Of a DNA stretch of 64,000 nt, positions 5,129-62,438 are shown one piece after another. Position numbers and translations under genes: made by a program. The DNA is from Metabacillus flavus (GTDB lineage Bacteria; Bacillota; Bacilli; Bacillales; Bacillaceae): positions 1,364,001 to 1,428,000 of the forward strand of contig NZ_JAGVRK010000001.1 in assembly GCF_018283675.1 (NCBI RefSeq). Direction: 5' to 3'. Below the pieces are notes generated by a model. It was not told where the DNA came from and did not search any database. It saw only the letters and a program-made list of their open reading frames with translations. Position 1 is the stretch's first letter, and each line of letters begins with the position of its first letter.

Positions 5129-5656
5129 GCCGCGCTCTTAGCAGAACATCCTTACTAGAAGCGCCCCTCGGTCAGAAGCTTCATCAGCTTTCAGAGGCCC
5201 GCACGAGGCGGGTCAGTTCTGCGTTGCGGCAGGACGCCGCGCCCTTAGCAGAACATCCTTACTGGAATCCGCTTCCGCTTTTCGTGGTGTCTAGCTCCAG
5301 CGGCTAGTCCTTCGGCTGCTTCGCTGGCCCTGTCAAAGTCAAAGAGCGACTTTGTCAGTTCCAGCTCCACCATCTCTCAGAGGCCCGCACGAGGCGGGTC
5401 AGTTCTGCGTTGCGGCAGGACGCCGCGCCCTTAGCAGAACATCCTTGCTGGAATCCGCTTCCGCTTTTCATGGTGTCTAGCTCCAGCGGCTAGTCCTTCG
5501 GCTGCTTCACTGGCTCTGTCAAAGTCAAAGGGCGACTTTGTCAGTTCCAGTTCCACCAGCTCTCAGAGGCCCGCACGAGGCGGGTCAGTTCTGCGTTGCG
5601 GCAGGACGCCGCGCCCTTAGCAGAACATCCTTACTGGAATCCGCTTCCGCTTTTCG
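5129..5656. repeat. Tandem 186-bp repeat block (about 2.5 copies)
   Basis: Near-identical units start at TCAGAGGCCCGCACGAGGCG at 5191, 5377 and 5563. The spacing is exactly 186 bp, and the third unit is cut off near 5656. A partial, diverged unit (CGCCGCGCTCTTAGCAGAAC) precedes them at about 5129. Each unit contains GTGTCTAGCTCCAGCGGCTAG and a short inverted repeat TGTCAAAGTC...GACTTTGTCA. The block is richer in G+C than its neighbours. Reading frames through it are repeat artefacts. Similar intergenic repeats are common in Bacillaceae genomes, in my recollection. Confidence 0.9.
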
Positions 5657-36446: not shown

Positions 36447-37899
<1,453 letters not shown>

Positions 37900-40163: not shown

Positions 40164-40279
40164 GTACTTATCAAGAGCAGGTGGAGGGACTAGCCCTATG
40201 AAGCCCGGCAACCGACCAGGACATTTACGTTCGGGCACGGTGCTAATTCTTGCAGCAGACATGCTGAGGGATAAGGTAC
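40164..40279 (+). promoter_or_regulatory. SAM-I riboswitch (S-box) before mtnW
   Basis: The blocks are CTTATCAAGAGCAGGTGGAGGGACTAG (split over the P1 and P2 strands), CCCTATGAAGCCCGGCAACC, CGGGCACGGTGCTAATTC and a closing GAGGGATAAG. P1 pairs GTACTTATC with GATAAGGTAC. The aptamer is followed by the terminator at 40296-40334. Confidence 0.97.
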
Positions 40280-56586: not shown

Positions 56587-57159
56587 ATGCATATTTTATG
56601 GGATTTTGACGGGACACTATTTAATACGTACCCGGCGTTTACCGAAACGATGTACAAGCTTTTAAAGCCAGACGTGAAAAAAGAGCATATTTTTGAACAG
56701 CTGAAGGTGTCTTTTTCGCATGCTGCACAAACCTTTGGAATGACAAAAGAGGACATTGCCGAATTTAAACAGAAGGAAAAGGCTCTTTCTCCTGTATTGA
56801 AGCCGCCCTTTCCATACGTAGAAAAGGTGCTGCAATACGCTTCAAAAAACGTCATCATGACGCATAAACCAAGGAATGAAGTGGAAGCTATTTTAAGTCA
56901 CTACGGGTGGGAGCATTACTTCGATGAAATTGTTGCCGGTGACGATGGATTTCCGAGAAAACCCGATTCGGCATCTTATCAATACCTTCATCAAAAGCAC
57001 CATATTGATCTTGCAATAGGTGATCGGGAACTGGATATCCTTCCTGCAAAAAAGCTCGGAATCAAAACTTGTCTCTTTCAGAATGATTCAGAGGGAGCAG
57101 ATTTTTACTTGATTGATTACCGTCAATTTGCAGATAAAGTTGCACCTTCATTCCAATAG
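56587..57159 (+). CDS. HAD-family hydrolase, phosphoglycolate phosphatase-like
   Basis: The 190-residue HAD-IA protein has motif I LWDFDGTLFNTYPAF, motif II VIMTHKPRNEV and motifs III/IV KPDSASYQ and AIGDRELDILPAKKLG. A cap insertion of helices follows motif I. ATG 56587 is preferred (AAGGGTGATAG upstream); GTG 56575 is in frame. It likely shares a transcript with the upstream phosphoesterase. A terminator follows. Substrate unknown. Confidence 0.9.
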   Translation: MHILWDFDGTLFNTYPAFTETMYKLLKPDVKKEHIFEQLKVSFSHAAQTFGMTKEDIAEFKQKEKALSPVLKPPFPYVEKVLQYASKNVIMTHKPRNEVEAILSHYGWEHYFDEIVAGDDGFPRKPDSASYQYLHQKHHIDLAIGDRELDILPAKKLGIKTCLFQNDSEGADFYLIDYRQFADKVAPSFQ

Positions 57160-57173
57160 GTGTAAACAAGAAC

Positions 57174-57198
57174 AAAAAAAGCGCTTGCGCTTTTTTTT
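57174..57198. terminator. Terminator after the HAD gene
   Basis: AAAAAAAGCGC / GCGCTTTTTTTT with a TT loop, and T8 on both strands. Confidence 0.9.
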
Positions 57199-57740
57199 GT
57201 TATCCAGCCCCGGCGGTATAAAGAATGAAAAACCTTCCAAACGACTGAAAAAATGAGATATAGGATGGTAACCAAGTATTTTTCTAGAATTATCGTCATA
57301 TTTATAAGGAAATTGGGAAACTGTTATGTTTGACTGTATACTTTTCTTTCGTATATGATTCTAGTAACTATATAAAGATTGGGGTGATAAGATGGGGCAG
57401 TGAACATGTTGAAGTTTTTAGGGATACAGCCGATCAATCGGTTTTCCCATATCGGGCTGCTTCATGCTTATCGGCCACAATTAACGGCCGGAAGAATCCG
57501 ATGAACCCTTCGGATGAGTAATGGATTTTGAGAAAAAGGCAGTTTGTCAGTTTTTTCATACAATAGCAATAATATATGAAAACGTGAGCTCGCTGCCGGC
57601 TCAAAGCCTGGTTTTCAGAACCTTGGAACGGTTTTACTTTTTGCCGGTTAACCGGCACTGCCATCATACGCTGATGGTCATTTTATAATCAACCCAGGAG
57701 GTGACTTCCTTTTCCGTAAATTACGGAACAAGGAACATAT
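57199..57740 (+). other. Long leader region of the CNNM gene, 542 bp
   Basis: A plausible promoter is TTGACT (57331-57336) with TATGAT at 57355-57360. Transcription from there would leave about 370 bases before the start at 57741. The leader holds several inverted repeats, including GCCGGTTAACCGGC (57643-57656) followed by CCATCATACGCTGATGG and TCATTTTA. It also has short frames: MGQ-stop at 57391 behind GGGGTGATAAG, and a 32-codon frame from ATG 57405. I recognise no known riboswitch class. Confidence 0.5.
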
Positions 57741-59093
57741 TTGGACATAGTAAATTTATTGCTCATTGCAATATTGATTGGATTAACCGCGTTTTTCGTG
57801 GCATCTGAATTCGCTATTGTAAAGGTAAGAAGTTCTCGTATTGACCAGCTGATCGCGGAAGGCAATAAAAACGCGGGAGCAGCAAAGCGCGTTATTTCTA
57901 ATCTTGATGGCTACCTTTCAGCCTGTCAGCTTGGAATAACTGTGACAGCGCTTGGGATTGGGTGGCTTGGGGAACCGACATTTGAACATTTGCTGAAACC
58001 GCTATTCGTTCAGATTGGTTTGCCAGACGCTCTGACACCGGTTATCTCTATTGCTTTTGCATTCGCCATCATGACTTTTTTGCATGTTGTTATTGGTGAA
58101 TTGGCTCCTAAAACATTGGCCATCCAAAAAGCAGAAGAAATTACCTTGCTGCTCGCACGTCCGCTCATTCTGTTCAACACTATCATGTACCCTTTTATAT
58201 GGGCCCTTAACGGCTCTGCCAGATACATTACTGGTTTATTCGGACTTAAACCTGTGTCTGAGCACGAATTGGCACATAGTGAAGAAGAACTTCGCATCAT
58301 TCTTTCAGACAGCTATAAAAGCGGGGAAATTAATCAATCAGAATTTAAATTTGTCAACAAAATCTTTGAATTCGATAATCGGATCGCAAAGGAAATCATG
58401 GTTCCCAGAACGGAAATCGTCTCCTTGTCTATTGATTCATTAATGAAAGAAAATATTGAAATTATGCAAAATGAGAAATATACAAGGTATCCGGTTACAG
58501 ACGGCGATAAGGACCATATTATCGGAATGGTCAACATTAAAGAAGTGTTCACGAATTTAATTCAGAAGAACAGCAAGGATTCGTTTTCTCTAAAAGAATA
58601 TGTCCGTCCGATTATCCAAGTGATTGAATCCATACCGATTCAGGACCTGCTTGTTAAAATGCAAAAAGAACGCATCCACATGGCCATCCTGATCGATGAG
58701 TACGGAGGAACCGCCGGTCTTGTTACGGTAGAGGATATTTTAGAAGAAATCGTTGGAGAAATCCGGGATGAATTTGATACAGACGAAGTCCCTAATATTC
58801 AAAAAATCAACGACAATCGCTACATTCTTGACGGTAAAGTTCTGGTAAGTGAAATCAATGATTTGTTCGGTCTTGAAATTGATGATAAAGATGTTGATAC
58901 AATCGGAGGCTGGGTGCTTACTGAAAAGTTTGACATCCAAAAAGGCGATATTGTTCAATTCGGTTCTTTTACATTTAAGGTTCGGGATATGGAGAATCAT
59001 CATATTAAGTATTTGGAGCTGACAAGGCAAGTTCAGGAAAGTCCGAGTGCCGTTCTTGAACAAGTAGATCAAAGCATAGCAAGTACAACTTGA
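57741..59093 (+). CDS. CNNM/CorC-family transporter (hemolysin-related)
   Basis: The 450-residue membrane protein has an N-terminal DUF21 transmembrane domain (about 1-180, [23 protein letters not shown]), two CBS domains (about 200-335, [14 protein letters not shown] and [20 protein letters not shown]) and a C-terminal CorC-HlyC domain (about 350-430). Family members export Mg2+ or other cations (MpfA/YhdP type). The historic hemolysin label is misleading. TTG 57741 follows AACAAGGAACATAT. It lies behind a long structured leader, which suggests RNA-level control. Confidence 0.93.
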
Positions 59094-62317: not shown

Positions 62318-62355
62318 GAACAGGTCAGCTAAATACAAATCCGTTTTTCAAAACG

Positions 62356-62438
62356 GGAGAGGTTCTAGCACAACCCTCTATAAAAAACTAAGGACAGCAA
62401 TATCAGAGGCGTTCCTTGGATATTGTTTTTTGTTTTTT
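62356..62438 (+). promoter_or_regulatory. preQ1-I riboswitch with terminator
   Basis: AGAGGTTCTAGC-ACA-ACCCTCTATAAAAAACTAAGG (from 62358 to 62393) is the class I preQ1 aptamer, a hairpin with an A-rich pseudoknot tail. The terminator CAATATC / GATATTG (62398-62425) is followed by TTTTTTGTTTTTTT. Binding of preQ1 lowers expression of queuosine precursor genes. Confidence 0.96.

Follow-up and report, generated by a model that had tools for sequence, protein, structure and literature searches.

Among the sampled Bacilli, merR-family genes that directly precede genes of CNNM-type transporters carry their best-served start codon out of the MerR reading frame, and a programmed -1 slip at codon 2 is probably what joins this start to the rest of the regulator. 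This family-wide feature is the unexpected part of the analysis and was reached by way of the leader of a CNNM gene in a stretch of 64,000 nucleotides of Metabacillus flavus (the window). For the leader, the likeliest reading is an evolutionary remnant in which one translation element is conserved; it is probably the scar of a merR gene, the gene that opens a merR-CNNM operon in other Bacillales. Taken together, the merR scar, the codon-2 slip in the intact merR genes and the looping-out of a hairpin before the CNNM start codon form a whole that is considered likely to be right.

The preliminary description of this region had reported a promoter-like pair at 57331-57360, about 370 untranslated bases with several inverted repeats, tiny open frames and a CNNM/CorC transporter behind them. 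As an observation it was confirmed as a whole, while its interpretation was partly supported. The promoter pair is real (Table 1) and matches the consensus in 10 of 12 positions; the consensus match by itself does not set it clearly apart from chance, as nine promoter-like sites were found in the 2.2-kb region against 5.5 expected (sd 2.4), and the segment around it, 57300-57402, is conserved in related genomes. The transcript would start near 57366, which leaves about 375 nt before the TTG. At the operator-like dyad, merR operons read roughly AAACCGTAACGTTTGACTGTACAGTTT in a by-eye comparison with the window. Both inverted repeats named at that time were located, GCCGGTTAACCGGC with its arms in 57642-57657 and CCATCATACGCTGATGG at 57661-57677; a third, TTCCGTAA/TTACGGAA at 57712-57728, had not been listed and is the conserved one. 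The leader folds better than its shuffled versions (-123.3 against a mean of -97.3 kcal/mol, z -4.55, 100 shuffles) and holds a weak terminator-like site at 57660-57678. Both tiny frames exist, and the MGQ-stop frame would correspond to the former start of merR. No tRNA was found.

Table 1. Features of the CNNM leader and gene, in window coordinates
Feature	Position	Strand	Basis
Operator-like dyad overlapping the -35 element, AAACTGTTATGTTTGACTGTATACTTTT	57318..57345	+	By-eye comparison, inference
Promoter TTGACT-18-TATGAT	57330..57359	+	Consensus scan, conservation in related genomes
Shine-Dalgarno (SD) sequence GGGGTGAT of the former merR start	57381..57388	+	Sequence comparison
Mini-ORF ATG GGG CAG TGA (MGQ-stop) behind GGGGTGAT	57392..57403	+	Same start in merR genes
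ATGGGG, counterpart of the slip site proposed for intact merR genes	57392-57397	+	Proposal
-1 frame AVNMLKFLGIQPINRFSHIGLLHAYRPQLTAGRIR-stop, possible merR remnant	57397..57504	+	Weak alone (17/300 shuffles as good)
Variable leader middle, site of the probably lost merR gene	57404..57690	+	Comparison with relatives
32-codon frame	57406-57504	+	-1 frame relative to ATG-GGG
Strong SD sequence AGGAGGTG	57696..57703	+	Comparison of CNNM starts
Hairpin TTCCTTTTCCGTAAATTACGGAACAAGGAA between SD and start codon, 13 pairs, one bulge	57706..57735	+	Predicted fold
CNNM/CorC-type transporter, TTG start, 450 aa	57741..59093	+	CNNM, CBS and CorC_HlyC domains above Pfam cut-offs

When related genomes were searched with the DNA of 57300-57760, 25 of 60 gave a match. 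It extended over the full segment in G001 and G005, and in the other matching genomes it was confined to the ends (about 57300-57402 and 57695-57760), with one short middle piece in G002. Alignment with relatives thus found both ends conserved and the middle not. The nearest named relatives are 'Bacillus sp. SJS' and Metabacillus species. Within the genus the distance from TTTGAC to the CNNM SD is 368, 360, 329, 260 and 83 nt in L001, L031, L004, L032 and L155 respectively, and the last of these has its promoter 83 nt from the final SD, with the middle and ATGGGG missing. The repeats GCCGGTTAACCGGC and CCATCATACGCTGATGG are altered in G001 and G005 and absent from G002, G003 and G004 of the same genus.

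A merR-family gene stands directly upstream in 44 of 80 named CNNM loci and is absent there in 36, among them all 16 loci of the Metabacillus type (L031-L043, L045, L050, L056). In L024 and L025 the same kind of promoter and SD is followed by ATGGGGCA, then by a MerR-family gene of 136-137 codons and then by CNNM. Directly upstream of the CNNM gene of the window there is no intact merR; its leader matches the merR-CNNM loci at both ends, in the promoter, SD and ATGGGG on one side and in the SD, hairpin and TTG on the other. Because the ends are homologous and merR fills the gap between them in L024 and L025, the leader is read as a merR scar. Loss of merR in the lineage of the window would have left its promoter with the operator-like dyad, its SD, the ATGGGG start (now MGQ-stop) and a decayed middle, together with the CNNM gene's own translation element, i.e. 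AGGAGGTG, the hairpin and TTG.

Remains of graded extent were seen among the 21 of the 36 merR-less loci that were examined. The merR start and the codons following it are kept in four loci of other lineages, L064 (ATGGGGCA ATC TAT CGT ATC), L067, L093 and L108, and the remaining ones retain a mini-ORF, the SD alone or nothing. In the window the -1 frame reads INRFSHIGLLHAYR against IDYYTNLGLLHAQR of MerR, in the right frame and order, with a score of 40 which is weak on its own; a merR fossil sought in four other scars was not detected. CNNM leaders of many sizes would then be merR scars, the gene having probably been lost several times. The genome of the window possesses an intact merR-CNNM pair elsewhere (L141/L168/L249, G000:C1:826.6 kb) with an out-of-frame TTGGGG, and its MerR could act in trans on the promoter of the window.

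Two islands in the otherwise variable leaders deserve mention. One, resembling AACCTTGGAACGGTTTT and lying near 57617-57635 in the window, is kept with small changes in L001, L002, L004 and L032, four species of the window's genus which differ in the rest of the leader middle. The other, close to GCATCCCTTATTGTWCTCCAAGCGGAYGC in sequence, is nearly invariant in the merR-less leaders L033-L040, L042, L043, L056, L013 and L017; it can fold into a hairpin, and no stop codon interrupts its -1 frame (ASLIVLQADA). The leader was also considered as a small protein gene, and this was rejected, the island shared in group g1 lying in three different frames in L001, L031 and L004.

The preliminary description had proposed that the leader could be a riboswitch, yet one that no known class fits. 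The second part holds, since a covariance-model scan (Rfam 15) of 57150-57800 gave nothing at gathering score, its ten matches with E up to 10 all being far below. That the leader forms a new class of ion-sensing RNA, a riboswitch or another kind, could be argued from the position before an ion transporter gene, from the good fold and from the islands common to G000, G001, G005 and in part G002; this reading is nevertheless regarded as very improbable, as besides the lack of an Rfam match the same-genus G003 and G004 and the related groups g3 and g4 have a different middle or none, and graded scars are seen in other lineages. With the leader middle not conserved, no conserved structured aptamer was found across the relatives, and most of the leader's length lacks conservation and is not required. 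What stands of that proposal is a long structured leader with a conserved cis-element; the part in which structure is conserved is a plain SD-hairpin-start element (57696-57743) with nothing aptamer-like about it. Somewhat less remote, though still improbable, is a leader-peptide attenuator in which the -1 frame or MGQ-stop is translated to control CNNM. The SD and ATGGGG with an early stop do survive where merR is missing in groups g1, g3 and g4, the g4 loci have MGAxLKxN..ASLIVLQADA in common in the -1 frame, and the weak terminator-like site would suit such a device; however, L155, L069, L074, L085, L088, L096, L103 and L104 do without ATGGGG, the three different frames of the g1 island speak against a translated peptide, and the terminator-like repeat is absent from G002-G004. 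Recognised RNA elements do occur elsewhere in the window: an M-box Mg2+ riboswitch at 1192-1356 (149 bits), which makes a classical Mg2+ leader elsewhere in this genome, three tandem Bacillaceae-1 RNAs 186 nt apart on the minus strand (5198-5636), and two SAM and one preQ1 riboswitches (37737-37899, 40165-40277 and 62353-62397).

In the intact merR genes, alignment of the starts revealed that the ATG or TTG behind a good SD does not share the reading frame of MerR. All 105 non-identical sampled merR genes located directly before CNNM have NTG-GG(G/A) in the -1 frame relative to MerR, always 17, 20 or 23 nt before a conserved Ile codon; the types are ATGGGG (70), TTGGGA (27), ATGGGA (5) and TTGGGG (3), and an SD match of at least 4 nt accompanies 102 of them. 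Back to the preceding stop, no ATG, GTG or TTG in the MerR frame is available in 54 of the 105, and 44 are devoid even of CTG, ATT, ATC and ATA. Downstream of NTGGGR such a codon (ATG, GTG or TTG) is absent in 75 genes and present in 30, and the codon three before Ile is GTC, TTA, GTT, TAC, AAA and so on. From codon -3 on, the codons vary synonymously in the MerR frame, which indicates translation of that frame from there onwards; the frame change must therefore fall within 8-14 nt after the start. A first survey had given the same result, with NTGGGR in the -1 phase in 82 of 82 non-identical merR genes with a CNNM hit in the locus and no ATG, GTG or TTG in the MerR frame back to the stop in 52. 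These genes were drawn by similarity to known members, which is no census, and deduplicated by identical 120-nt windows; the remaining rows are related, so that p-values are overstated.

A caller based on the SD and blind to the motif placed the start in the -1 frame in 102 of the 105 directly linked genes (the three exceptions, L160, L176 and L203, on direct look have NTGGG in the -1 phase too), in all 11 merR genes with CNNM elsewhere in the locus and, where the stretch covered has no CNNM hit, in 12 of 21 genes. The control comprised 33 MerR-domain hits in G000, G014 and G016, of which 30 had loci, and all 30 were examined by coordinates. Five of them have a CNNM hit, directly linked in L245, L249, L258 and L256 and after a gap of about 0.7 kb in L242, and four of these five (L245, L249, L258, L242) were called -1. 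Among the other 25 loci, 24 were in frame and L233 was a tie, having an in-frame ATG with an equal SD score. The fifth CNNM-associated gene, L256 (G014:C1:469.2 kb), is directly before CNNM and outside the 105; it was called in frame. Its TTGGGA lies in the -1 phase 20 nt ahead of the Ile codon, as in the other genes, and an in-frame ATG that lacks an SD is present as well; L256 is either an exception or an intermediate.

The link of the -1 start to CNNM is strong and not exclusive. Unlinked merR genes with a -1 start occur beside a Zn_peptidase_2 gene (L149 and, by resemblance, L121, L169 and L179), a Peptidase_M48 gene (L196) and Spo0M (L177, L228); a longer stretch around L177 (L230) also contains a CNNM. 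The merR gene of L190, beside a Zn_peptidase_2-like ORF, is in frame, and viral contigs gave one weak MerR relative. CueR/YhdQ of B. subtilis, beside MpfA, may belong to the merR-CNNM group. Annotation can hide such starts: for merR of L159 (2501-2911) RefSeq gives a TTG which lies 8 nt after the SD-served TTGGGA and has no SD at normal distance.

Read in its own frame, the out-of-frame start leads to a stop after no more than 12 codons in 120 of the 128 -1 genes. This early stop is mostly TAG produced by Leu NTA followed by GCN or by Ile ATA followed by GGN (104 of 128, against one of nine in-frame genes). Where the residue at the stop site is Leu, its codon is NTA in 76 of 101 cases and CTA in 27 of 101, against 35% and 9% elsewhere in the same genes, and this excess suggests selection for ending the unshifted frame.

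These observations led us to infer a programmed -1 slip at codon 2 of the intact merR genes. The ribosome would initiate at the SD-served NTG, in the wrong frame relative to MerR, and the glycine tRNA in the P site would slip on the run of G (NTG_GGR), from GGR back to GGG one base upstream, with the initiating SD still paired; ribosomes which do not slip would end at the early stop codon. An out-of-frame start overlapping a product with no in-frame start of its own is found in 54 of the 105 genes, the other 51 having an ATG, GTG or TTG in the MerR frame, and the site has the slippery Z_ZZN form (G_GGG or G_GGA within NTG_GGR). No downstream stimulatory structure, which bacterial frameshift sites do not always have, was detected in the 53 of 105 genes tested (mean z -0.25), and transcriptional slippage on a run of three to four G would be unlikely. 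According to PMC4066793, G_GGG and G_GGA caused little or no slippage when assayed during elongation in E. coli, where GGGG may also work as an SD. The latter may be counted in favour of an arrangement without frameshifting, in which merR is expressed via an overlapping upstream mini-ORF with reinitiation or from a non-canonical start codon. A normal start is possible in the 30 linked genes that have an in-frame ATG, GTG or TTG after NTGGGR, and in L256 too, while L191, L192 and L229 have ATG or TTG followed by GGG ATA TGA with an overlapping ATG. For the family this arrangement is rather doubtful: 75 of 105 genes offer no such codon after NTGGGR, 54 none back to the stop, 44 lack even the rarer start codons named above, and the codon three before Ile is varied. 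Reinitiation or odd start codons are possible for part of the merR genes, and for the group the codon-2 slip is preferred.

The second translation element belongs to CNNM itself. In the window the strong SD is 39 nt from the start codon in line and 9 nt once the hairpin between them is removed. The collection comprised 178 distinct CNNM starts bearing an SD-like motif, including a few misparsed entries (the second rows of L167 and L127 as well as L151), and 10 entries without such a motif. The hairpin folds in 159 of 165 analysed SD-bearing starts, with a mean z of -3.9 against mononucleotide shuffles and 95% below -2. In 25 picked sequences of 55 nt, a set that left out L109, L115, L124 and L138 of the same length, 88.0% of cells are paired and six pairs (12 cells) are changed on both sides; in all 29 sequences of 55 nt the figure is 81.5%, and pairing drops to 35-64% when the partner is slid. 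The hairpin between the strong SD and the start is thus kept through compensatory changes. RNAalifold on a 96-row alignment of CNNM starts did not return it, since hairpins that differ in length fall out of register in a plain alignment. A model of the hairpin run against the window's own genome (150 of 1647 first-look candidates scored) gave two matches, both at CNNM starts: 57696-57749 in the window (E 1.9e-8) and L262 (G000:C1:3205 kb), beside whose CNNM no merR was found in the stretch covered. The CNNM of L141, whose hairpin differs, was not reported by the model.

It is most likely that this hairpin loops out, so that the distant strong SD would serve the start codon. Against this stands the reading that CNNM is in truth served by the proximal AAGGA and that the hairpin hides this SD as an off switch, an alternative to which we give a minor but real chance. 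An SD-like 5-mer lies 4-14 nt before the start in 107 of the 159 hairpin-bearing starts, and in the window AAGGAA is the 3' arm of the hairpin; the distal SD, however, is very strong, with GGAGGTG in 96 of 96 alignment rows (rows picked for an SD-like motif), and L148, L150, L168, L206 and L207 keep the distal SD and the hairpin with no proximal SD. With the hairpin removed the SD spacing scatters between 0 and 16 nt and is most often 9-13. As a control, ORFs of the window served by a far SD only were sought and none was found among 55; CNNM was not flagged, its proximal AAGGA passing as an SD, so that this control tells little. An alternative hairpin AGGAG-GTGA-CTCCT that would hide the SD was rejected, being possible in one group only and impossible where GTGTAAT, GTGTTAC or GTGCCGG follows the SD.

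A gene scar can take the form of a long and unusual leader, and the out-of-frame merR start resembles recoding at codon 2 that extends over a whole family of regulator genes. If this is confirmed, frameshifting just as translation initiates would have a regulatory use in cellular genes, and the looped hairpin together with its SD and start would be a second conserved translation element, this one for CNNM transporters. Control by the transported ion may be suspected. Much more tentative is the idea that the slip, before CNNM and some membrane peptidases and Spo0M, is obligatory for the regulator, that the ribosome acts as a sensor of cytosolic Mg2+ (or Mn2+) through slip rate and hairpin folding, and that merR-less lineages such as that of the window keep only the hairpin half. 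In the titles and abstracts of the open-access literature, outside which many subscription journals lie, no report of a frameshifted merR before CNNM or of the CNNM hairpin was found.

Several known systems resemble parts of this arrangement. The M-box (ykoK leader) is known for the control of Mg2+ transport genes and is alike in this respect; in contrast, the leader of the window has no M-box match at 57150-57800. In the T4 gene 38-type starts a hairpin closes the distance between a remote SD and the start codon, in the same SD-hairpin-start order, whereas the CNNM element belongs to a chromosomal transporter family and has changing hairpin sequences. The autoregulatory frameshift of prfB (RF2) also takes place near the gene start with an SD, but it is +1 and at a stop codon some 25 codons in, while that of merR would be -1 and at codon 2. 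The -1 frameshifting at Z_ZZN tetramers in bacterial IS elements (PMC4066793) has in common with merR the G_GGG or G_GGA tetramer, the upstream SD, and a 0 frame which soon stops while the product continues in the -1 frame; merR differs in that the shift site would be codon 2 including the G of the start codon, the stimulating SD would be the initiating one, no downstream structure was found, and its tetramers showed little or no shifting in E. coli. The double use of one SD, for initiation and for frameshifting as proposed for merR, also occurs in an IS element mentioned in a review (PMC5009743), with the difference that merR is a cellular regulator gene across the sampled Bacilli and not a mobile element.
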